From: a virus | Length of the DNA: 25,078 bases | Reading direction: 5' to 3' (one strand) | Virus record (IMG/VR): IMGVR_UViG_3300034061_002000 | Coordinates: 1-25,078 of that record | Shown: positions 3,800-23,141 of the stretch, one piece after another | Position numbering within the stretch: the first letter of the stretch is position 1 | Layout of the letters: the number at the start of each line of letters is the position of its first letter | Translations under genes and position numbers: made by a program | The notes under the pieces: model-generated | What the model was told of the DNA's origin: nothing | What the model saw: only the letters and a program-made list of their open reading frames with translations | The model's database searches: none

Positions 3800-3821
3800 A
3801 ATTACTTTAGTAATTCCACAG

Positions 3822-3847
3822 AAAGCCCTCCAAGTGAGGGCTTTTTT
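3822..3847 (+). terminator. Rho-independent terminator
   Basis: AAAGCCCTC, loop CAAGT, then GAGGGCTTT running into six T residues. This is a textbook intrinsic terminator 22 bases after the stop of the 2615 gene. It separates that unit from the chaperonin operon. Confidence 0.9.
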
Positions 3848-3848
3848 G

Positions 3849-3878
3849 TTGCACAAAGCAAAAAATTCACTAGATTTG
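3849..3878 (+). promoter_or_regulatory. Promoter of the groEL-groES operon
   Basis: TTG at 3849-3851 and TAGATTTG at 3871-3878 with a 19-base spacer match the Bacteroidota promoter consensus. The -33 element overlaps the end of the terminator T-run. The ATG of groEL is 18 bases past the -7 box. No CIRCE-type inverted repeat (the HrcA operator of many bacterial groE operons) is seen. Confidence 0.7.
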
Positions 3879-3895
3879 TCAAAAAATCAAGTGAA

Positions 3896-5458
3896 ATGGT
3901 AGTAAAACATGTACATTTAGGCGACGAAGGTCGTCAAAAGCTCATCAAAGGCATCAAAACGATCGCTGGAGCAGTAAAAAGCACATTAGGTGCGCGAGGC
4001 CGAACGGTCTTAATTGAGTCAGAGCACCATGTTGGTGGTATTACAGTAACAAAGGACGGTGTGACGGTCGCTAAGTCGATCAATCTATACGACCCGGTTG
4101 AGAACTTGGCTGTTATGATGGTCAGACAGGCTGCTGAGAAGACGGCTACTGTTGCTGGCGATGGTACTACGACAAGTGTGGTGTTAGCTGAGGCTATTGT
4201 TGATGCTGCATCTGACGTATTAACATCTGATGACAACGTGACTGAGGTGATCAGGGAGATTAATAGCATCACGACAGACGTCGTGACGCATCTAACCAAA
4301 CGTTCTAAGAAGTTATCTGGCAAGAAGCTCAGAGATGTGGCTTCAATTAGTGCAAACAATGACACTGAGATTGGCGGCATGATCGCTGACGCGTTCAGTG
4401 AGGTAAAGATGGTATCTGTAGAGAACAGCAAGGACCATAACACGTATGTTGAGGTGATCAAGGGCATTAAGGCTGACCGTGGTTGGTCTAGTCGTCACTT
4501 TATTACTGACTACAAGCGTCAGGAGGCTGTGTTAGAGAACCCATATGTGTTGATCACTGACCAAGAGATCAATAACTTGTTAAACATTGAGCGCATTCTA
4601 CAACATGTTGTAGCCAACAACAAGCCACTCCTAATCATCGGTGAGATGACACCAGCTGCTTTGAACACATTGAACATTAACGTTGCTCAGGGCAAGATAA
4701 AGGCATGTCATATTATTCCACCGAACTTTGGGTACCGTCAGAAAGACTTGCTTGAGGACTTGGCGATCGCATTGGACGGCACATACTTCAGTGAGGACAC
4801 TGGTGATGACTTGTCATTGATTGACGTTGCTCACCTAGGTCGTTGTGCTAAGGTGATCGTTAGTAAGGACAATACGATTTTTATGCCTTATAGCAGTTCC
4901 CAAACTGCTATTGATAATCGCATTGCTGACATCAACGAGACGATCTTTGACGGCATCACTAAAGAGGAGATGGACAACCGTAAGGAGCGAATGGCCAACC
5001 TATCTGGTGGTGTTGCTGTGATCTACGTTGGTGCATTGAGTGATATTGAGCAGAAGGAGAAGCGCGACCGCATTGATGATGCTGTCTGTGCAGTTGAGGC
5101 GGCCTTAGAGGAGGGCATTCTACCTGGAGGTGGTGTTGCTCTATATGAGTATGCTAAGAACTATCCAAACACATCTACTGCTGAGAAGATTATGCACAAG
5201 GCATTAATGGCTCCAATGCGTCAGATCCTTGACAACGCTGGTAAAGATGCTCAGTTCATCATGGACGGCATCCTTCCGTTCCCTAACGAGGGCTACGACG
5301 TGAAAGGAGAGCAGTACGGTGACATGATTAAGCTTGGCATCATTGACCCAGCGAAAGTCACTAAGAACGCCTTATTAAACGCTGTGTCGGTCGCTACAAC
5401 GATCATGAGCACAAACGCTATCATTACAAATATCAGAGCAGATGAAAGTATTAAATAA
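3896..5458 (+). CDS. groEL: Chaperonin GroEL (phage-encoded, 60 kDa class)
   Basis: A complete group I chaperonin of 520 residues (E. coli GroEL has 548). The ATPase signatures are intact: TKDGVTVAK with Asp54, AGDGTTTSVVLAE with Asp89 and DDAVCAVEAALEEG with Asp395, equivalent to Asp52, Asp87 and Asp398 of E. coli GroEL. GILPGGGVAL and KVTKNALLNAVSVAT follow. The apical domain is diverged: by hand alignment DRGYLSPYF becomes DRGWSSRHF, Leu234 becomes Glu and Val263 becomes Asn, so the substrate-binding surface is altered. The Gly-Gly-Met tail is absent (it ends IRADESIK). It would form a ring that folds proteins in the cytoplasm, probably virion proteins. It overlaps groES by 17 nt and has its own promoter. 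Confidence 0.97.
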   Translation: MVVKHVHLGDEGRQKLIKGIKTIAGAVKSTLGARGRTVLIESEHHVGGITVTKDGVTVAKSINLYDPVENLAVMMVRQAAEKTATVAGDGTTTSVVLAEAIVDAASDVLTSDDNVTEVIREINSITTDVVTHLTKRSKKLSGKKLRDVASISANNDTEIGGMIADAFSEVKMVSVENSKDHNTYVEVIKGIKADRGWSSRHFITDYKRQEAVLENPYVLITDQEINNLLNIERILQHVVANNKPLLIIGEMTPAALNTLNINVAQGKIKACHIIPPNFGYRQKDLLEDLAIALDGTYFSEDTGDDLSLIDVAHLGRCAKVIVSKDNTIFMPYSSSQTAIDNRIADINETIFDGITKEEMDNRKERMANLSGGVAVIYVGALSDIEQKEKRDRIDDAVCAVEAALEEGILPGGGVALYEYAKNYPNTSTAEKIMHKALMAPMRQILDNAGKDAQFIMDGILPFPNEGYDVKGEQYGDMIKLGIIDPAKVTKNALLNAVSVATTIMSTNAIITNIRADESIK

Positions 5459-5702
5459 GTTCTTACTAGTAAAGAAAGTAGCTGAGCAGAAGCAGACCAA
5501 GAGTGGTTTGCTTCTGACCGGTGAGGACGCTAGTGACATGAGATATCATAAGGCTATAGTCTACAAAGTAGGTGATAACATCATTGGAATAAATTCTGAG
5601 GATACTATCCTATACGACAAAGTACAAAGCCATGAGGTCATCCTTGATAATGAAAGGATGACTATAATTCAGGAGAGGGACGTTGTTTGCGTCTTCGATT
5701 AA
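5442..5702 (+). CDS. groES: Co-chaperonin GroES
   Basis: An 86-residue GroES/Hsp10-type protein (about 95-97 in bacteria). It has the usual N-terminal strand (VLNKFLLVKKV), a mobile loop EQKQTKSGLLLTGED whose SGLLLT corresponds to the GGIVLT that docks on GroEL, and the C-terminal ERMTIIQERDVVCVFD matching the family pattern of a final strand ending in DVVAV. The shortening falls in the middle, where the roof hairpin lies. The start lies inside the end of groEL in another frame, so translation is coupled. Its 3' end overlaps the convergent gene at 5662-6147 by 41 nt. It likely caps the phage GroEL or the host GroEL. The order groEL-groES is the reverse of the common bacterial operon. Confidence 0.92.
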   Translation: MKVLNKFLLVKKVAEQKQTKSGLLLTGEDASDMRYHKAIVYKVGDNIIGINSEDTILYDKVQSHEVILDNERMTIIQERDVVCVFD

Positions 5703-6147
5703 AATCTGTTATTGCAATAGCTAAGGTCTTCTGATTGAACGGTGCGTTTTTTCGGAAGGCCTTATTGCGTCTTACTGACGTTGGTATTGGTTCTTCACCT
5801 GTCAGCTTCTTATAGATAGACGTAATCATTTTCTTGGTCTTAAATGACACCTCATACAGCTGCCCCTCATTATAATTTTTCTGTCGCCATTCACTGATCC
5901 ATCCATCCTTCAGTAATCTGTTGAAGCGTTCTTTATCCCAGGTCATGAAGTTTTTATATTCGTCAAAGTCTGACTTTCTGAATAATCTATTGCCATGTAA
6001 AAAGAACAGCATCTCAAGATCTGACAGTGTGACGCCATAGTTAACTTGGGCCCAACGTCTAACAATTGCCCACTCTGTAAGAAAGTCATACTTCAGCGGT
6101 TCGCGTTGTATTATTCTTTCGTATATTATTGTTTTTCTAACTTTCAT
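5662..6147 (-). CDS. Probable winged-helix (MarR-like) transcription regulator
   Basis: A 161-residue basic protein read opposite to its neighbours. Residues about 40-115 follow a winged-helix layout: helix LSDLEMLFFLHG, a linker, a helix FDEYKNFM, a likely recognition helix DKERFNRLLKDGWI, then a beta wing around WRQKNYNEGQLYEVSF and a final helix KKMITSIYKKLTGEE. The C-terminus is Arg/Lys-rich. I recall similar unnamed proteins annotated as MarR-like regulators in Bacteroidota phages, but this is memory. It is transcribed from the palindromic promoter at 6148-6165 with a leader of only a few bases, and could bind that palindrome to control itself and the rightward genes. Its 3' end overlaps groES antisense. 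Confidence 0.65.
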   Translation of the reverse strand: MKVRKTIIYERIIQREPLKYDFLTEWAIVRRWAQVNYGVTLSDLEMLFFLHGNRLFRKSDFDEYKNFMTWDKERFNRLLKDGWISEWRQKNYNEGQLYEVSFKTKKMITSIYKKLTGEEPIPTSVRRNKAFRKNAPFNQKTLAIAITDFNRRRKQRPSPEL

Positions 6148-6165
6148 TATATTTGTACAAATATA
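6148..6165. promoter_or_regulatory. Divergent promoter on a perfect 18-bp palindrome
   Basis: TATATTTGTACAAATATA is perfectly self-complementary, so a TATATTTG -7 element appears on both strands, back to back. A TTG lies at 6129-6131 for the rightward direction (16-base spacer), and CAA at 6186-6188 gives a leftward TTG (20-base spacer). The leftward ATG (6147) abuts the palindrome and the rightward ATG is at 6172, so both mRNAs would be nearly leaderless. A dimeric repressor bound to the palindrome would block both directions. Confidence 0.65.
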
Positions 6166-7652: not shown

Positions 7653-9749
7653 ATGATTGGTCTTGGTATAGCTAATTCTTTAGGTGTAAACCTATCAGGA
7701 ATAAATCCTGCTGCTAAGTCATTTGTATCAGCTACTGGAATAAGCGGTCCTAATGAAGTTAAGGCTATTAATGATCTAGTGAACGGTCTGCAAGCTGACG
7801 GGATATGGTCTAAAATGAAAGCGGTGTATCCTTTTGTTACTGATAATAGAAACTTGCTTGGATATACTGAGGATTTTGGTAATGCCTATTGGACTAAACA
7901 AAGTGCAACGGTTTCTACAAATACAACTACAGCTCCAAATGAAACTTTAACTGCTGATACATCTGCATTTAGTTCTACTGTACAATCTTTTGTTAGAGCA
8001 TCAAGTATCTCCATAAATTCAGGTCAGACATATACAATAAGCGTTTATGTAAAAAAATCAGCAAGTAGCGGAGCAAACAACATAAGAATTACAACTAATG
8101 ATACAATTGCTTGGAATACGGGTATATCACAAAAATTTGCTTTAACTAATTCTTGGCAGAGAATAACTCTCACAGGTGTTTTAACAAGTAGTGTTAATGT
8201 TTGTCACATTGTTTTTGGTTCAACAGGTATAGATGGTAATGTTGATGCTACTTGCGGTGGTAATGTAGATATGTGGGGAGCGCAACTCGAACTCGGCTCT
8301 ACTGCTACAACATACCAACCAATATCAACTACTCAGCAAGCATACATAGCAAACCAATTCAAATACAACCTTGTCAATCCACTTGATACGGATGCTGCCT
8401 TTAGACTTGTGTTTAACGGAGGATGGACTCATTCAAGTTTGGGAGCTACTCCTAACGGTACGAATGGTTACGCTGATACGAAGTTAACACAAACTGCCGC
8501 AGGAATGTTTAGTAATTCACATTTCAGTTTTTATTCAAGGACAAATAGTACAACTGCAATTGCCCAAGTTGAAATGGGTGTAGGTTTAACTACGGGTACA
8601 ACTTATTCGAATTTATTAATGCGACTTGACACGGCTACAAGTTATGTTGGTGGTACCGTAGGAAGCAGAAACGCTTTATCAACTTCAGCAAATTCGACTG
8701 GACACGTTATTGTAAATGGTTTAAGTGCATCTGCAAAAGCGTTTAAAAATGGCACTTTGATTGCTACTGATACAGCTACTCAAACTGGTGTATTAAATAC
8801 ATTGCCAATTTATATAGGTTGTCAAAATGCCAATACTATCGCAACTAATTTTTCAAGTCGTCAAGCAGCATTCACCTCAATTGGAGATGGTTTAACCGAT
8901 ACCGAAGCAGCTAACCTATACACACGAGTTCAAACGTTTAACCAAGCATTAGGACGTCAGGTTGGTGTGCCTATCGTTTCTGATGCCGATGCTCAAGCGT
9001 TTTTAAACTCAGCAGAAATTACGGACTTAACTCAAGCTAACGCAATCAACACGCTTGTTACTGATTTAAAAGCACAAGGTTTATGGACTAAAATGAAGGC
9101 AGTCTATCCGTTTGTAGGTGGTACGGCATCAACTCACAAATGGAATTTAAAAGACCCAAGAGACCTTGATGCTGCGTATCGCTTGGTGTTTAATGGTGGG
9201 TGGACACATAGCTCAACTGGTGCTACTCCTAATGGAACAAATGGTTTTGCTGATACCAAGTTGAATGATTTATCGGTTATGTCTGATTCGTCAAATAGTT
9301 TAGGTTTTTATTCAAGAACAAATAACTCTTTGTTAAATTGTAATGATATAGGGGCTTATGATGGTTTATATTTTACAGGATTAAGGTTTAATAATAATAA
9401 TACAACTTCATTTGCTCATAATGGCACAGATGGAGCAAGTGGAAGTGCCGTTTTATTTAATAGCACATTATCAAGCGCGGCATTTTTAACACAAAGCAGA
9501 ACAAGTTTAACATCGTTAAAATTTATACGAAATGGCGTTGTGTTGGCGTCTACAACAAATACTAAAACGGGAATAAATGCTAATCAAACATTTTATGTAG
9601 GTGCCACAAATGGCTTGTTTGGCGCGCAACAATATGGCAATAGAGAATTGGCATTAGCATATTTTTCAAACGGTTTAACAGACACCGAAGCAGCAGCACT
9701 TAACTCAGCAGTACAAACATATCAAACAACTTTAAATAGAAACGTATGA
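7653..9749 (+). CDS. Tail-fibre or surface protein with duplicated module and CBM-like insert
   Basis: A 698-residue Thr/Asn/Ser-rich, beta-dominated protein with no signal peptide. It contains two copies of one module, about residues 31-440 and 455-698. Each begins with AIN-LV--L-A-G-W-KMKAVYPFV, continues with D-DAA-RLVFNGGWTHSS and GATPNGTNG-ADTKL, and ends with GLTDTEAA-L---VQT. Copy 1 carries an extra segment, about 65-230, starting NLLGYTEDFGNAYWTKQSAT and ending VDMWGAQLELGSTATTYQP, which resembles carbohydrate-binding beta-sandwich domains of phage appendages. The role is most likely host-surface binding. It overlaps the next gene by 4 nt (ATGA). Confidence 0.75.
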   Translation: MIGLGIANSLGVNLSGINPAAKSFVSATGISGPNEVKAINDLVNGLQADGIWSKMKAVYPFVTDNRNLLGYTEDFGNAYWTKQSATVSTNTTTAPNETLTADTSAFSSTVQSFVRASSISINSGQTYTISVYVKKSASSGANNIRITTNDTIAWNTGISQKFALTNSWQRITLTGVLTSSVNVCHIVFGSTGIDGNVDATCGGNVDMWGAQLELGSTATTYQPISTTQQAYIANQFKYNLVNPLDTDAAFRLVFNGGWTHSSLGATPNGTNGYADTKLTQTAAGMFSNSHFSFYSRTNSTTAIAQVEMGVGLTTGTTYSNLLMRLDTATSYVGGTVGSRNALSTSANSTGHVIVNGLSASAKAFKNGTLIATDTATQTGVLNTLPIYIGCQNANTIATNFSSRQAAFTSIGDGLTDTEAANLYTRVQTFNQALGRQVGVPIVSDADAQAFLNSAEITDLTQANAINTLVTDLKAQGLWTKMKAVYPFVGGTASTHKWNLKDPRDLDAAYRLVFNGGWTHSSTGATPNGTNGFADTKLNDLSVMSDSSNSLGFYSRTNNSLLNCNDIGAYDGLYFTGLRFNNNNTTSFAHNGTDGASGSAVLFNSTLSSAAFLTQSRTSLTSLKFIRNGVVLASTTNTKTGINANQTFYVGATNGLFGAQQYGNRELALAYFSNGLTDTEAAALNSAVQTYQTTLNRNV

Positions 9750-15066: not shown

Positions 15067-15317
15067 AAAAGTTTTTTAGAGAATTGATCTCAGACGACAA
15101 CCAAATTAACGAGCAAGCCTTTGTTGGCGTTGTATCGTTTTTTGCTATGGTATTTGTTTTATTAACAGATGTATTCACTGGTATAATTGGTAACGAGTTA
15201 GTCATTAAAGAATTTATCTTTGATGGATTTATGTTACTAACTTTGGGGGCGTTTGGCATCACAACTGCCGGGCGTATCATGAAACTCAAAAATAAAGATA
15301 AAAATGAAGATAACTAA
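15063..15317 (+). CDS. Putative holin, 84 aa
   Basis: An 84-residue protein with two hydrophobic segments, about 19-37 (AFVGVVSFFAMVFVLLTDV) and 52-68 (FIFDGFMLLTLGAFGIT), and a strongly basic/charged C-terminus (MKLKNKDKNEDN). The design matches class II holins, and the sequence DDNQINEQAFVGVVSF with a later FDGFMLLTLGAFG resembles holin-like proteins I recall from Bacteroidota phages. It lies directly before the endolysin and overlaps it by 14 nt, the usual holin-endolysin order. It would permeabilise the inner membrane to release or activate the lysozyme. Confidence 0.75.
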   Translation: MKKFFRELISDDNQINEQAFVGVVSFFAMVFVLLTDVFTGIIGNELVIKEFIFDGFMLLTLGAFGITTAGRIMKLKNKDKNEDN

Positions 15318-15762
15318 GACAGGAACAGCAGGTATTGATCTTATCAAGGTATTTGAAGGATTTAGATCAGCGCCATACAAATGTCCGGCAGGTATCCCTA
15401 CCATTGGATACGGAGCTACATTCTACCCTAACGGCAAGAAGGTAACTATGGCTGATAAAGCTATAACTGAAGCTGAGGCTGTAGATTTGCTTAAGCATAT
15501 GCTCGTTAGCTTTGAGAAGTATGTTGACAGCTATTGTAGAGATGACATCAATCAAAATCAATTTGATGCGTTAGTGTCGTTTGCTTACAACCTAGGTCCT
15601 GCTAACTTAAAAGCTTCTACTCTATTGAAGAAAGTAAATGCCAATCCAGAAGATGAGTCTATTAAATTAGAGTTCATGAAATGGGTTAAAGCAGGCGGTA
15701 AAACATTAAAGGGTCTCGTCAGAAGAAGAGAGGCTGAGTCAGTATTATATTTTAAAAAATAA
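15304..15762 (+). CDS. Endolysin, GH24 lysozyme (muramidase)
   Basis: A 152-residue phage lysozyme of the T4/lambdoid GH24 family, cleaving the MurNAc-GlcNAc bond of peptidoglycan. The catalytic pattern is Glu18, then Cys27, then Thr33 within FEGFRSAPYKCPAGIPTIGY, i.e. Glu-8x-Cys-5x-Thr, where T4 lysozyme has Glu11-Asp20-Thr26. Cys at the Asp position occurs in other GH24 members. The NQFDALVSFAYNLG motif and the C-terminal GLVRRREAESVLY are also typical. No signal-arrest sequence is visible, so it depends on the holin. It overlaps the holin gene and is followed by the M15 peptidase 3 nt later. Confidence 0.95.
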   Translation: MKITKTGTAGIDLIKVFEGFRSAPYKCPAGIPTIGYGATFYPNGKKVTMADKAITEAEAVDLLKHMLVSFEKYVDSYCRDDINQNQFDALVSFAYNLGPANLKASTLLKKVNANPEDESIKLEFMKWVKAGGKTLKGLVRRREAESVLYFKK

Positions 15763-15765
15763 AAC

Positions 15766-16233
15766 ATGCAACTAAGTAAAAACCTATCACTCGCAGAAGT
15801 AACACGTAGCGAAACTGCAAAACGTCGTGGCATTTCTAATATGCCAACACCTGAACACATTGAGAACTTCAAGAAGTTGGCTGAGAACGTGTTTCAACCT
15901 ATCCGTGACCACTTCGGTGTTCCTATCCATTTAAGCTCAGGATATCGCTCAGCAGCGCTTAATAAGGCAGTTGGTGGTGCATCATCTTCACAGCATTCAA
16001 AAGGTGAGGCTATTGACATTGATATGGATGGTAGTGCAAATGGAGTTACTAACAAGATGGTGTTTGACTTTATTAAAGCAAACGTAAATTTTGACCAATT
16101 GATTTGGGAGTTTGGAACAGATGCAAACCCTGATTGGGTTCACGTTTCTTACAACTCTGATGGCGCGCAACGCAAACAAATTCTTGTTGCTAAGCGTTCA
16201 GGAAGTAAGACTGTTTATGTTCCATACAAGTAA
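15766..16233 (+). CDS. Peptidase M15A-type endolysin (zinc D,D-carboxypeptidase-like)
   Basis: A 155-residue protein with the M15A zinc-binding arrangement: His77 and Asp84 in SQHSKGEAIDIDMD, and His126 in DWVHVSYN. The upstream SSGYRSAALNKAVGG segment is also characteristic. The family hydrolyses peptide bonds in the peptidoglycan stem or cross-bridge, so it would complement the GH24 lysozyme that cleaves glycan chains. No signal peptide or membrane segment is visible. It ends the lysis block, and a new -7 element follows 14 nt later. Structural-protein roles of M15 domains in virions are an alternative. Confidence 0.93.
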   Translation: MQLSKNLSLAEVTRSETAKRRGISNMPTPEHIENFKKLAENVFQPIRDHFGVPIHLSSGYRSAALNKAVGGASSSQHSKGEAIDIDMDGSANGVTNKMVFDFIKANVNFDQLIWEFGTDANPDWVHVSYNSDGAQRKQILVAKRSGSKTVYVPYK

Positions 16234-17484: not shown

Positions 17485-17692
17485 AAAAATTTCCATTGGT
17501 CCTGACTACATGAAGTGCATGCACTACATGGTTGGTCAGACTGTCCTAGATAGAACTTGGGAGATCAACACCATCCGAAAAGAGGATGATGGTGCTATCT
17601 GCGTTTGGATTATCAAGGATGGTGAGATTATTAAATGGAAATCATTCTCTAACGCAATGCCCATTGCGATAGAATACAAAATAGATTACTAA
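17471..17692 (+). CDS. Hypothetical protein with GTG start, 73 aa
   Basis: A 73-residue protein whose start is best placed at GTG 17471 (GTGAGTATAATTAGAAAAAT), because IIRKISIGPDYMKCMHYMVG includes residues ahead of the first ATG that look conserved in related phage proteins from memory. The pattern is a short beta-strand protein with IRKxSIGPDY, HYxVGQ, an acidic turn and a C-terminal AMPIAIEYKIDY. No membrane segment. It overlaps the previous gene by 14 nt and shares one base with the next ATG. Function unknown. Confidence 0.7.
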   Translation: MSIIRKISIGPDYMKCMHYMVGQTVLDRTWEINTIRKEDDGAICVWIIKDGEIIKWKSFSNAMPIAIEYKIDY

Positions 17693-18249
17693 TGAAATCA
17701 CCATACTGCTTCATCATTAAACCAGTAGGTCAGAGGCGGTACGATAACATAAAGAAGTTCGGAGATACCGACTTCTATATCAGCTCCTCACAAGAAGACC
17801 ATAAGACATCTAATCGCTTCGCTGAAGTGGTCAGCGTGCCTATTTACTACAACGGCCCTGTTCAACCAGGCGACACTGTTGTGGTACACCACAATGTGTT
17901 CAAATACTACTACGATATGAAAGGTCGTCAGAAAAGTAGTTGGAACTATATCATGGATGATATGTTTTTAGCTGAGCTAGATCAGGTGTATATGTATAAA
18001 AGAGATGCTGATTGGCAGGCCGTTGATCCGTTTATATTTATCAGACCAATACCAAATGAGGATAAGTTAATTAGCTCTACTGGTGCACATGAGGCACTGT
18101 GGGGTGAGGTTGTATATAAAACAAATACAATCTCCAATGTGAATGTTGGCGATGTGGTCTCATTCACACCCGATAGCGAATATGAATTTATAATAGATGG
18201 AGAGACTATCTATCGAATGTATAATAAGAACATATGTCTAAAAAGGTAG
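17692..18249 (+). CDS. Protein with two GroES-like modules, next to the terminase
   Basis: A 185-residue protein with two successive segments that each follow the co-chaperonin (GroES/Cpn10) pattern. Module 1, about 5-100: CFIIKPVG, a loop, then FAEVVSVP, VQPGDTVVVHHNVFK, and YIMDDMFLAELDQVYM. Module 2, about 113-185: FIFIRPIPNEDKLISS, then GEVVYKTN, VNVGDVVSFTPDSEYEFIID and GETIYRMYNKNICL. The [GA]EVV, GDxV and final Tyr...Ile features align with GroES. No clear mobile-loop GGIVL motif is seen in either half, so GroEL docking is uncertain. It may be a chaperonin cofactor, as T4 gp31 is for its capsid, or a structural protein on the same fold. It overlaps the next gene by 16 nt. Confidence 0.6.
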   Translation: MKSPYCFIIKPVGQRRYDNIKKFGDTDFYISSSQEDHKTSNRFAEVVSVPIYYNGPVQPGDTVVVHHNVFKYYYDMKGRQKSSWNYIMDDMFLAELDQVYMYKRDADWQAVDPFIFIRPIPNEDKLISSTGAHEALWGEVVYKTNTISNVNVGDVVSFTPDSEYEFIIDGETIYRMYNKNICLKR

Positions 18250-18509
18250 AAATTATTGAGGCTGCGAAAGAAGCCATCAATGAGTTAATAAAGGTGCTTA
18301 AGTCACCTATCATCACTCATGCTGAGGACGACATATCGGCTGACAAGATGAAGAACGCAGCGTCAGCTAAGCGTTTGGCATTTGAGGATGCTATGTTCAT
18401 GCTCAATAAAATTGAGGAAGAAGAAAATAAGGCTGCAGAGGGACCGGTTGTCGAGGTAACACTCGGTAAGTCAGGCTTCGCAGAGGGAAGAGCACGACAT
18501 GGAAAATAA
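18234..18509 (+). CDS. Small helical protein preceding TerL, possible TerS
   Basis: A 91-residue helical, charged protein: VEIIEAAKEAINELIKVLKS, then a second helix AASAKRLAFEDAMFMLNKIE and an acidic/Lys tail with TLGKSGFAEGRARHGK. It lies directly before the large terminase with an 11-nt overlap, the usual place of the small terminase subunit. It is shorter than most TerS proteins and shows no obvious helix-turn-helix, so the assignment is positional and weak. Confidence 0.55.
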   Translation: MSKKVEIIEAAKEAINELIKVLKSPIITHAEDDISADKMKNAASAKRLAFEDAMFMLNKIEEEENKAAEGPVVEVTLGKSGFAEGRARHGK

Positions 18510-20718
18510 ACTGTACTCTATAGTAAATGACTACGTCAATAAGACTGCTCTTAACACTAAGAACAGCAAGAAGTCATGGGACTATGGATACAACAAAGAG
18601 TATGACCTCATTGTTATATCTAAGGATGGAACCATTGGTGAAATCTATGAGATAAATGGACTTAAGGTTGCGTTGCCGTCTACTCCTAAGGTAGTAGAGA
18701 ACAGAGGTAACAAATGGCAACCGGTCGATTATCCAGCCGAGCTACAGAAAATTAAGTCAATATTTGACTGGAACAGAAGAGACAATGCGTTCAAACTGAA
18801 GTACGTCGACATGATCGAGACTGAGTTTGAGAGGCGCGAGAAAGGCTTTTGGTTTATTAACAACGGAAATCCAACATACATAACTGGGACGCACTACATG
18901 TACCTTCAGTGGACAAAGATTGATATTGGTCTTCCTGACTTCCGTGAGTCCAACCGTATATTCTACATATTCTGGGAGGCATGTAAGGCAGATAGCAGAG
19001 CGTTTGGTATGTGTTATCTAAAGAACCGTCGTTCAGGTTTCTCATTTATGTCGTCGGCAGAGACGTCAAACACAGGTACAATTGTAAGAGATGCTAGGCT
19101 TGGCATTCTGTCCAAGACGGGCGCCGATGCCAAGAAGATGTTTACCGACAAGGTTGTACCAATTGTAAGAAATTACCCCTTCTTTTTCAAGCCGATCCAG
19201 GATGGTATGGACAACCCGAAGACGGAGTTAGCCTTCCGGGTTCCTGCGAGTAAAATTACGCGCAAGAACATGGATGAGGAGCGCGATGATGACATAGAAG
19301 GGTTAGATACTACCATTGACTGGAAAAACACCGCAGACAACAGCTATGACGGTGAGAAACTACTTTTACTTGTACATGACGAGAGTGGTAAATGGGAAAA
19401 GCCTGAGAACATTCTAAACAACTGGCGAGTCACCAAGACTTGTTTACGTTTGGGTAGTCGTATCATTGGTAAGTGTATGATGGGGTCCACGTCAAATGCG
19501 CTCAGTAAGGGTGGTGAGAACTTCAAGAAGTTGTTCTATGACAGCGACCCAAACAAACGATCTGCCAATGGTCAGACTAAGTCAGGGCTTTACTCTTTGT
19601 TTATTCCAATGGAGTGGAACATGGAGGGCTTTATTGACGAGTATGGATGGCCTGTATTTGAGGATCCTAAGAAGCCCATTATGGGCATCGATGGTGAGGA
19701 GATTACTATGGGTGTCATAACCTATTGGAATAACGAGGTGGCTGCAATGAAGTCAGACTCTGACGCACTCAACGAATACTACCGTCAGTTTCCTAGAACA
19801 GAGTCACATGCTTTCCGTGATGAGAGCAAGTCGTCTCTATTCAACTTGACTAAGATATACCAACAGATTGACTACAACGATGCGATGATCAAAGATCACG
19901 TCCTAACAACCGGTTACTTCCATTGGAAGAATGGAGAGAAGGATAGCGAGGTCATTTGGACACCTGATCCGAAGGGTAGATTTATTGTGTCGTGGATCCC
20001 TGACGCTAAGATGCGTAACAATGTCATTAAGAGGGATGGTAAGTTCTATCCTGGCAATAAAGACATTGGCGTGTTTGGATGTGACCCTTATGACATCTCA
20101 GGCGTAGTTGGTGGTGGTGGATCGGCAGGAGCATTGCATGGCATCACTAATTTCCACATGGAAAGTGCTCCAACCAATCACTTCTTTTTAGAGTATATCG
20201 CTCGTCCTCAGACTGCTGAGATATTTTTTGAGGACGTATTGATGGCTTGTTTTTTCTACGGAATGCCTATACTTGTAGAGAATAACAAACAGCGACTATT
20301 GTACCACTTTAAGAACAGAGGATACCGTCCATTTTCAATGAACAGGCCTGACAAGCATACGTCTAAACTATCAAAGACAGAGCTTGAATTAGGCGGTATT
20401 CCCAACTCTAGTGAGGACGTAAAGCACGCGCATGCCAATAGTATCAACACATACATCGAGGAATATGTTGGTATTGATGCGGAAGGAAACTATAGGGAGA
20501 AAGAGTCTATGGGTGACATGTATTTTACGAGAACATTAAATGATTGGGCCCGATTTGATATTAATAACCGAACTAAACATGATGCCTCGATTAGTTCAGG
20601 ATTGGCATTAATGGCATCAAGAAGACACCTATTTATACCTGTTAAACAGGAATCTAAAATAAGTGTTAAATTTGTAAGATATAAGAATACTGGCATAAGA
20701 AGCGAAATTATCGAATAA
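18499..20718 (+). CDS. Terminase large subunit (TerL)
   Basis: A 739-residue packaging motor and nuclease. The ATPase has a degenerate Walker A (LKNRRSGFSFM, Lys175 to Ser182, with RSGFS in place of the usual GKS/T), a Walker B (KLLLLVHDE, Asp294 and catalytic Glu295) and the coupling motif MGSTSNALSKGG. The RuvC-like nuclease shows Asp529 in GVFGCDPYDI, Glu594 in ILVENNK and Asp695 in KHDASISSG, the three acidic residues expected to bind metal. It drives DNA into the prohead and cuts the concatemer. The gene overlaps the upstream small helical gene by 11 nt and touches the portal start. The large size resembles TerL of crAss-like and other large Bacteroidota phages (from memory). Confidence 0.93.
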   Translation: MENKLYSIVNDYVNKTALNTKNSKKSWDYGYNKEYDLIVISKDGTIGEIYEINGLKVALPSTPKVVENRGNKWQPVDYPAELQKIKSIFDWNRRDNAFKLKYVDMIETEFERREKGFWFINNGNPTYITGTHYMYLQWTKIDIGLPDFRESNRIFYIFWEACKADSRAFGMCYLKNRRSGFSFMSSAETSNTGTIVRDARLGILSKTGADAKKMFTDKVVPIVRNYPFFFKPIQDGMDNPKTELAFRVPASKITRKNMDEERDDDIEGLDTTIDWKNTADNSYDGEKLLLLVHDESGKWEKPENILNNWRVTKTCLRLGSRIIGKCMMGSTSNALSKGGENFKKLFYDSDPNKRSANGQTKSGLYSLFIPMEWNMEGFIDEYGWPVFEDPKKPIMGIDGEEITMGVITYWNNEVAAMKSDSDALNEYYRQFPRTESHAFRDESKSSLFNLTKIYQQIDYNDAMIKDHVLTTGYFHWKNGEKDSEVIWTPDPKGRFIVSWIPDAKMRNNVIKRDGKFYPGNKDIGVFGCDPYDISGVVGGGGSAGALHGITNFHMESAPTNHFFLEYIARPQTAEIFFEDVLMACFFYGMPILVENNKQRLLYHFKNRGYRPFSMNRPDKHTSKLSKTELELGGIPNSSEDVKHAHANSINTYIEEYVGIDAEGNYREKESMGDMYFTRTLNDWARFDINNRTKHDASISSGLALMASRRHLFIPVKQESKISVKFVRYKNTGIRSEIIE
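20667..20674 (+). promoter_or_regulatory. Possible internal -7 element before the portal gene
   Basis: TAAATTTG inside the end of terL, 43 bases before the portal ATG. It fits TAnnTTTG but lacks an obvious -33 partner and lies in coding sequence. It could provide separate expression of the head genes or be coincidental. Confidence 0.25.
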
Positions 20719-23141
20719 TGGATAAACCATCAGTTGTTATCTCCTCATTACCCTTTCCGGACCAAATGGCGCCAGATGAAATTAAGGCGACATATGAGTA
20801 TGGATTAAAGGTAGGAAAAGCCATCGAAGGGGAGTGGTTTAAGAGGAAGTCTAATTCAAGCAGATTTTATCAGCAGTGGGGTGAATTCCACCGCCTGAGA
20901 CTATATGCCCGTGGAGAACAGCCTGTACAGAAGTACAAGGACGAAATCGCTGTTAATGGCGACATATCAATGCTTAACTTAGATTGGACTCCGGTTCCAA
21001 TCATCCCTAAGTTTGTTGACGTTGTTGTTAATGGCATGTTAGACAGACCATACACCATTAAGGCTGAAGCACAAGACGTTCTATCTGCTGAGAAGAAGAA
21101 CGTGTTCCAGGATATGATCGAGGCTGACATGGTAGCCAAGGACTTCTTAACAATGACTAAGGAAACACTTGGCATTGACGCATTCAACGTAAATCCAGAT
21201 GAGATACCTGCGAATGATCAAGAGCTTTCTCTGTACATGCAAATGAACTACAAGCCATCTATTGAGATTGCTGAAGAGGTTGCCATCAACACACTTCTCA
21301 AGATGAATGACTATGAGGATGTGTTGAGAGACTACTACTATGACGTTGCTACGTTAGGGGTTGGTGTTGTAAAGCATGAGTTCCTTATCAACGATGGTGT
21401 TAAAGTCGAGTATGTAGATCCAGCTAACTGGATACATAGTTATACTGAAAAAAATGACTTCTCTGATTGTTTCTACTTCGGAGAGGTTAAGCAGGTTCAC
21501 TACACTGAGCTGCTTAAAATGAACCCAAATCTTACTGACGAAGAATTAACTGAGATTAAGAACGCAGGATCTGCTTGGTATGACTACTTTCCAATAGTTC
21601 GTAATTACCAAGACGATGCATTCTTAAATGAAGTTGTGACGTTGTTGTATTTCAATTACAAGACACACAAAAAGTTTGTTTGGAAAAAGAAATTGCTTGA
21701 GAACGGAGGAGAGCGAGTAATCCGTAAAGATGACAACTTCAACCCACCACCAAACGAAATGTTTGAGGTAGTTGAGGCTGTTCGCGACGTTTGGTATGAA
21801 GGTGTATTGGTCGGTGGATCAAACATTGTCATCAAATGGGAAATGATGAAGAACATGGTGCGTCCTAAGTCTGCATCACAAAAAGCACTTCCAAACTACA
21901 TTGCTTACGCTCCACGTTACTATAAAGGAAACATTGAGTCACTCGTTCGCCGAATGATCCCATTTGCTGATCAGATACAATTAACTCACTTGAAGTTACA
22001 GCAAGTTATGGCTCGCGTAGTTCCTGATGGTGTGTTCATTGATGCTGACGGTATTAATGAAGTAGACCTTGGTACAGGTGCAGTATACAATCCTGAGGAT
22101 GCACTCAACCTATACTTCCAAACTGGTAGTGTGATTGGACGTAGCTACACCCAAGATGGTGAGTTCAACAACGCGCGTATTCCAATCCAAGAGCTCAACT
22201 CAAACAGTGGTCAAGCTAAGATGGCTGCCCTTATCGGCAACTATAACCACTACTTGAATATGATCCGCGACGTGACGGGTGTAAATGAGGTGCGCGATGC
22301 ATCTACACCACATCCGGATGCATTGGTTGGTGTTCAGAAACTTGCAGCACTTAACTCAAACACAGCTACTCGCCACATCTTAGACGCTGGTATTAATACC
22401 ACTAAGAGAGTTGCTGAATGCTTGTCTATTCGTGTTGCTGACATACTTGAGTATGCTGACTTCGCTGAGGAGTTTGCTATGCAGATTGGCAAGTACAACA
22501 TGGCTATACTTGAGGACGTTAAAGATCTTTACCTGCACGACTTTGGTATCTTTATTGAGATTGCCCCAGATGAAGAGCAGAAGGCACAACTTGAGCAGAA
22601 TATTCAGATGGCGTTGCAGCAGCAGACAATTGACCTAGAGGATGCAATTGACATCCGCATGATTAATAACATCAAGCTTGCCAACGAGATGCTTAAGATG
22701 AAACGTCGTAAGCGTATGGAGCAGAATCAAAAAGAAAAAGAGATGGAGTTCCAAATGCAGATGCAGACAAACATCCAATCTTCTCAAGCAGCTGCTGAGG
22801 CTAAGGCACAGGTCATCCAATTGGAAGGCCAAACGAAAGCACAGATCAAGCAGATGGAAGTTCAAGGTGACATTCAGAAGATGCAGGCAGAAGCTGAGCT
22901 CAAGAAAGAACTGATGGCTATTGAATTCCAATACAACATGCAGTTGAATGGAATGCAGATGCAGACATTGAAGGACCGTGAGGCTGAAAAAGAAAAGGCT
23001 AAAGATAAGCGAGTAGACCTACAGGCCACTCGTCAGTCTGAGCTAATCAACCAACGACAAAATAACTTACCACCTCAAAACTTTGAGAGTACAGAAGATT
23101 CACTTGATGGCTTCGATTTAGAAGCATTTGGACCTAAATAA
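20718..23141 (+). CDS. Portal protein
   Basis: An 807-residue protein at the standard place after terL. Residues about 60-560 have the portal-like pattern: WTPVPIIPKFVDVVVNGMLD near the N-terminus, NVDG-like strands, then LTHLKLQQVMARVVPDGVFI, GRSYTQDGEFNNARIPIQEL and the conserved-looking DVTGVNEVRDAST followed by DALVGVQKLAALNSNTATRH. From about 610 to 770 a long Gln/Lys/Glu/Met-rich helix forms the crown or barrel coil. The dodecameric portal is the DNA entry channel of the head. The middle part is very like portals of crAss-like Bacteroidota phages as I remember them; a search would settle this. It shares one base with the next start. Confidence 0.85.
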   Translation: MDKPSVVISSLPFPDQMAPDEIKATYEYGLKVGKAIEGEWFKRKSNSSRFYQQWGEFHRLRLYARGEQPVQKYKDEIAVNGDISMLNLDWTPVPIIPKFVDVVVNGMLDRPYTIKAEAQDVLSAEKKNVFQDMIEADMVAKDFLTMTKETLGIDAFNVNPDEIPANDQELSLYMQMNYKPSIEIAEEVAINTLLKMNDYEDVLRDYYYDVATLGVGVVKHEFLINDGVKVEYVDPANWIHSYTEKNDFSDCFYFGEVKQVHYTELLKMNPNLTDEELTEIKNAGSAWYDYFPIVRNYQDDAFLNEVVTLLYFNYKTHKKFVWKKKLLENGGERVIRKDDNFNPPPNEMFEVVEAVRDVWYEGVLVGGSNIVIKWEMMKNMVRPKSASQKALPNYIAYAPRYYKGNIESLVRRMIPFADQIQLTHLKLQQVMARVVPDGVFIDADGINEVDLGTGAVYNPEDALNLYFQTGSVIGRSYTQDGEFNNARIPIQELNSNSGQAKMAALIGNYNHYLNMIRDVTGVNEVRDASTPHPDALVGVQKLAALNSNTATRHILDAGINTTKRVAECLSIRVADILEYADFAEEFAMQIGKYNMAILEDVKDLYLHDFGIFIEIAPDEEQKAQLEQNIQMALQQQTIDLEDAIDIRMINNIKLANEMLKMKRRKRMEQNQKEKEMEFQMQMQTNIQSSQAAAEAKAQVIQLEGQTKAQIKQMEVQGDIQKMQAEAELKKELMAIEFQYNMQLNGMQMQTLKDREAEKEKAKDKRVDLQATRQSELINQRQNNLPPQNFESTEDSLDGFDLEAFGPK

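Follow-up and report, generated by a model that had tools for sequence, protein, structure and literature searches.

A viral genome record with a GroEL-GroES gene pair and a possible second, two-domain co-chaperonin

The window analysed here is the whole of viral record IMGVR_UViG_3300034061_002000, 25,078 bases long, and its source is best explained as a podovirus-like phage whose host is a member of the Bacteroidota. When the window was compared with phage records at the nucleotide level, no near relative appeared. The features that bear on its chaperonin genes are as follows.

3820-3848, plus strand, intrinsic terminator closing the upstream gene (stem AGCCCTC-CAAGT-GAGGGCT, then a T run)
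3866-3895, no strand assigned, inverted repeat overlapping the promoter, TTCACTAGATTT-GTCAAA-AAATCAAGTGAA
3871-3878, plus strand, Bacteroidota-type -7 promoter element TAGATTTG, a match to TANNTTTG
3896-5458, plus strand, groEL, 520 aa (Pfam, PHROG and PDB sequence matches; ATPase residues intact)
5442-5702, plus strand, groES, 86 aa (Pfam Cpn10, 1.2e-11), starting inside the 3' end of groEL
5662-6147, minus strand, convergent gene, about 160 aa (PHROG 17028, function unknown)
17692-18249, plus strand, tandem GroES-like protein, 185 aa, a possible second co-chaperonin (PHROG 13932, 6.2e-19)
18499-20718, plus strand, terminase large subunit, beside the tandem gene (PHROG 6681, 2.4e-178)
20718-23141, plus strand, portal protein, also beside the tandem gene (PHROG 6547, 1.7e-156)

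The coordinates and family assignments agree with the initial annotation in its central point, an intact 520-aa GroEL followed by an 86-aa GroES with an overlap of 17 nt (positions 5442-5458). Exactly this overlap is kept in 24 relatives and dN/dS is low, which makes a chance overlap unlikely. The pair had also been described as having its own promoter and being isolated by a terminator, and here only the upstream part stood: a promoter-like element and a terminator precede groEL, but no terminator was found 3' of groES, the end of which falls within the convergent gene on the minus strand. The start given for the feature, position 3849, proved to be the tail of the upstream terminator.

That terminator has a predicted folding energy of -18 kcal/mol (z -3.2), equalled by none of 200 shuffled sequences. 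Single matches to TANNTTTG arise by chance, and the weight rests on conserved position: the motif lies 24-26 nt 5' of the groEL ATG in the window and in each of the 24 relatives that share the 17-nt overlap, and this position is constant despite differing flanking sequence. Both the terminator and the element TAGATTTG were absent from the output of a general sigma-70 and terminator scan of the window. The inverted repeat over the promoter, matched by 2 of 200 shuffles, is a possible operator. Close relatives (L007, L008, L011 and L016) have inverted repeats of other sequences at the same place, and at least four different repeat sequences occur at the groEL promoter among close relatives, as though the specificity of the operator had diversified. 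The convergent gene is also found 3' of groES in close relatives and in ctfjg026, where the copy is annotated "repressor protein"; in our own reading its product has a winged-helix look, and it could be a regulator of the groEL promoter. A palindrome, TATATTTGTACAAATATA, lies at 6148-6165 between divergent genes, with a -7 element on each strand.

The window GroEL has two marks of a group I chaperonin, a near full-length Cpn60 match (Pfam Cpn60_TCP1, E 9.5e-56, residues 23-512 of 520) together with the catalytic ATPase residues. The PHROG groEL profile matched at E 1.2e-127, and sequence matches to GroEL chains in the PDB span residues 4-516. The aspartates D54, D89 and D395, already read as intact ATPase residues from the sequence, correspond to E. 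coli D52, D87 and D398 and are present in 14/14 members of the phage clade, with the surrounding motif conserved. Apical positions such as L234 and V263 of the E. coli protein bind substrate and GroES. The changes noted in this groove are present and common to the clade: E. coli L234 corresponds to E232, where 14/14 clade phages have Glu and 80/80 bacteria a hydrophobic residue; V263 corresponds to N260, Asn in 12/14 clade phages and Val in 80/80 bacteria. Further altered positions are Y199W and Y203H, and the Gly-Gly-Met tail, which the initial annotation reported as lost, is missing throughout the phage GroEL clade. It is plausible that the complex is specialised for phage proteins. Inter-ring positions have diverged as well (K105 is Asp, the E434 loop is deleted, and S463 and V464 are changed), so the double-ring cycle may not apply to the phage GroEL, and a single-ring form is possible; the R452/E461 pair is retained in the window as Arg/Asp.

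The bacterial GroELs nearest to the window protein are only about 39-42% identical to it, with Flavobacteriia prominent among the top matches. A phylogeny had been proposed as a check on the origin of the genes, and in it the window GroEL falls in a phage-only clade, outside any recent host lineage (support 100 in a quick tree, 100/100 in a careful one). A deep position as sister to Flavobacteriia was not rejected by the AU test (p 0.21). Taken together, the phage-only clade and the identity of about 40% exclude, at the level of sequence comparison, a recent transfer of groEL from a host, while an old transfer remains compatible.

Gene order is opposite to that of bacteria, as had been claimed: in a sample of 80 bacterial loci, all 77 with a detectable GroES read groES-groEL. 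Among phages, groEL-groES is the order in the window clade, in ctfjg026 and in the Flavobacterium elemo phages, and groES-groEL that in immuto, Calle_1 and DAC20. In Bacteroides phage DAC20 a GroES-like gene lies directly 5' of groEL (L116:2718-2981), both being annotated as hypothetical; the record named "Acinetobacter phage MD-2021a" (L003) also has groES-groEL, amid genes of bacterial metabolism, and appears to be host DNA, not phage. The elemo phages and ctfjg026 rule out the idea that a reversed pair is unique to this phage. Nor is a full GroEL-GroES pair in a phage as unusual as had been supposed, with examples both published and in GenBank: some phages carry both genes (PMC7185714), and both were reported in Maribacter phage Panino (PMC11590407). 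The phage pair and its reversed order are thus real and already on public record.

The GroES has a Cpn10 domain (Pfam 1.2e-11; PHROG GroES, E 1.9e-11) and a GroES fold, its AlphaFold2 model (pLDDT 76) matching GroES structures, with Foldseek E values down to 3e-5, and also T4 gp31. The mobile-loop motif SGLLL is retained, the gene adjoins groEL, and the roof segment is short, like that of gp31. Its description as a shortened GroES holds against E. coli, where the difference is 11 aa, but against the likely host lineage the shortening is only about 5-6 aa because flavobacterial GroES is itself short.

The gene at 17692-18249, which the initial annotation did not mention, lies about 12 kb from groEL. 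PHROG 13932 carries the name "co-chaperonin GroES". The AlphaFold2 model of its 185-aa product (pLDDT 82) is matched best in the PDB by two long 7ekq chains over its full length, and next by single GroES chains; a PDB sequence search gave the name of one of the long chains as a Cpn20 co-chaperonin subunit. The predicted fold follows that of a Cpn20-type protein, with its two GroES domains, over the whole length, whereas profile comparison sees only the C-terminal half (GroES, 96%, E 2e-9); the N-terminal half went unrecognised as GroES by profile and is GroES-like by predicted fold only. Searching PDB sequences with the tandem protein itself returned nothing useful. The N-terminal half has a low-confidence loop (approximately residues 12-40) with conserved residues at the place of the mobile loop; its VHHNVFKYYYDMKGR motif is very conserved and lacks an equivalent in GroES. 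No clear mobile-loop motif was seen in the C-terminal half.

The tandem gene was found in 77 records of the phage collection, annotated as cpn10 in some and as hypothetical in others. "Chaperonin cpn10" is a core gene of the Pervagoviridae (PMC8776804), and the annotation of Calle_1 leads us to infer that this core gene encodes the tandem protein. The homologue in phi38:1, gp089, is annotated "hypothetical protein" among several neighbours called "structural protein", a hint that the tandem protein is not an abundant part of the virion. In elemo and Calle_1 the tandem gene lies within structural blocks.

By profile, groEL, groES and the tandem gene occurred together in all 11 longer records that cover both places and are readable by the profiles used (nine from IMG/VR, G001-G004, G006-G008, G010 and G012, plus ctfjg026 and elemo). 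Both groEL and the tandem gene are present in phi38:1 and Calle_1, whose single GroES is too distant for the profile, though Calle_1 has one by annotation. In other records groEL lies about 7-12 kb upstream of the tandem gene, and three records with the tandem gene and without groEL (57.6, 40.3 and 38.8 kb) are not counter-examples, as the expected place of groEL would lie past the end of the contig; likewise, a 47.4 kb record with groEL-groES and without the tandem gene ends before the tandem place downstream. The tandem gene was found in none of 395 sampled genomes of the host class; the single-GroES profile matched 134/149 host genomes. Values of dN/dS from pairs with unsaturated synonymous sites were about 0.05-0.12 for groEL, 0.10-0.13 for groES and 0.05-0.11 for the tandem gene, indicating that all three are under purifying selection. 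Phage GroELs of this type are made, since the homologous GroEL of phi38:1 was detected in free virions as well as in cells under infection (PMC13288928). Marine phages of the phi38:1 type commonly carry GroEL (PMC5332604).

We propose, with a probability of roughly 0.6, that these genes encode a folding machine of the phage's own, dedicated to virion proteins and having two lids, the activity, clients, lid roles and timing being inferred. The phage would encode its own group I chaperonin, with groEL and groES co-transcribed from a promoter of their own that is probably regulated, and with their translation coupled. GroEL would bind ATP and, through a groove unlike that of the host, unfolded proteins of the phage, most likely those of the virion or for packaging, and GroES would cap it through the SGLLL mobile loop, its short roof perhaps giving large clients more room, as is thought for T4 gp31. 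While virion proteins are made, the two-domain co-chaperonin may serve as an alternative or mixed lid, in the way that plastid Cpn20 can join with Cpn10. A more specific version, in which the lids are exchangeable, GroES serving early or general clients and the tandem protein replacing it or mixing with it to alter chamber symmetry or size for capsid and packaging proteins, is speculative, and we would not bet on it; if true, it would give the plastid Cpn10/Cpn20 system a counterpart among viruses.

Several known systems frame this proposal. The elemo phages and ctfjg026 share with the window groEL followed by groES and a separate tandem GroES-like gene in a structural block, but their GroELs are only 38-48% identical to that of the window, and the pair overlaps by 1 nt in elemo and not at all in ctfjg026. 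The Cellulophaga phages phi38:1 and Calle_1 (Pervagoviridae) also have a GroEL and a tandem gene upstream of terminase and portal, the tandem protein being about 30% identical to that of the window; unlike the window, Calle_1 has its single GroES 5' of GroEL with one gene between. Chloroplast Cpn20 has two GroES-like domains per chain, as predicted for the tandem protein, which by contrast is viral, is encoded beside packaging genes and, in sequence searches, resembles no PDB chain. How a two-domain lid serves a seven-fold chaperonin is a puzzle already known from plastids. Plastid Cpn10(1) is functional only as a hetero-oligomer with Cpn20 (PMC4242682). The giant phages EL, OBP and AR9 likewise encode GroEL relatives (PMC7185714, PMC9598537), but these function independently of any co-chaperonin, and the identity between EL and GroEL is only 22%, as against about 40% between the window protein and bacterial GroEL; the adjoining groES and the 39-42% identity rule out a lid-independent chaperonin of that kind here.

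The alternative that we take most seriously, although we consider it unlikely, is that an ordinary GroEL-GroES pair adds general folding capacity and that the tandem protein acts separately in morphogenesis, for instance as a helper in packaging or assembly, with a GroES-like fold and no contact with GroEL. The position of its gene beside terminase and some 12 kb from groEL would suit such a role, as would the N-terminal half that profiles fail to recognise and the conserved VHHNVFKYYYDMKGR motif; against it, the tandem gene occurs with groEL in every record that covers both places, and the best fold matches of its product are co-chaperonins. Less probable still is that the tandem protein, and perhaps GroES too, acts like gp31 on the GroEL of the host, redirecting it to phage clients, while the phage GroEL does something else, such as preventing aggregation. 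T4 gp31 replaces GroES on host GroEL, according to its database annotation, and gp31 and CocO of RB49 resemble the window GroES in their reduced roof, retained mobile loop and GroES fold. Those phages, however, supply the lid only and use host GroEL (PMC9598537), whereas the window phage encodes a GroEL of its own and so falls outside the gp31 type, and its groove and lid genes are conserved together. That the genes were recently captured from a host and have no phage-specific function we regard as very improbable: the deep position beside Flavobacteriia that the AU test left unrejected is the point in its favour, set against the low identity to bacterial GroELs, the fully supported phage-only clade, a gene order unlike that of all bacteria examined, and purifying selection.

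Earlier annotations record the tandem protein only as "cpn10" or leave it unnamed, and a description of it as a tandem protein or second lid was not found in the open-licence literature, though it may be noted elsewhere. A phage lineage that combines a GroEL with both a single and a tandem lid, and that has cultured relatives (elemo, Calle and phi38:1), would offer a simple test system, and such phages would show whether a complete chaperonin gets tuned to phage clients.

Elsewhere in the window, adjacent genes at 15304-15762 and 15766-16233 encode a phage lysozyme and an M15 peptidase, both cell-wall enzymes, and a 698-aa protein (7653-9749) with a match to a carbohydrate-binding domain is possibly a tail fibre or spike.
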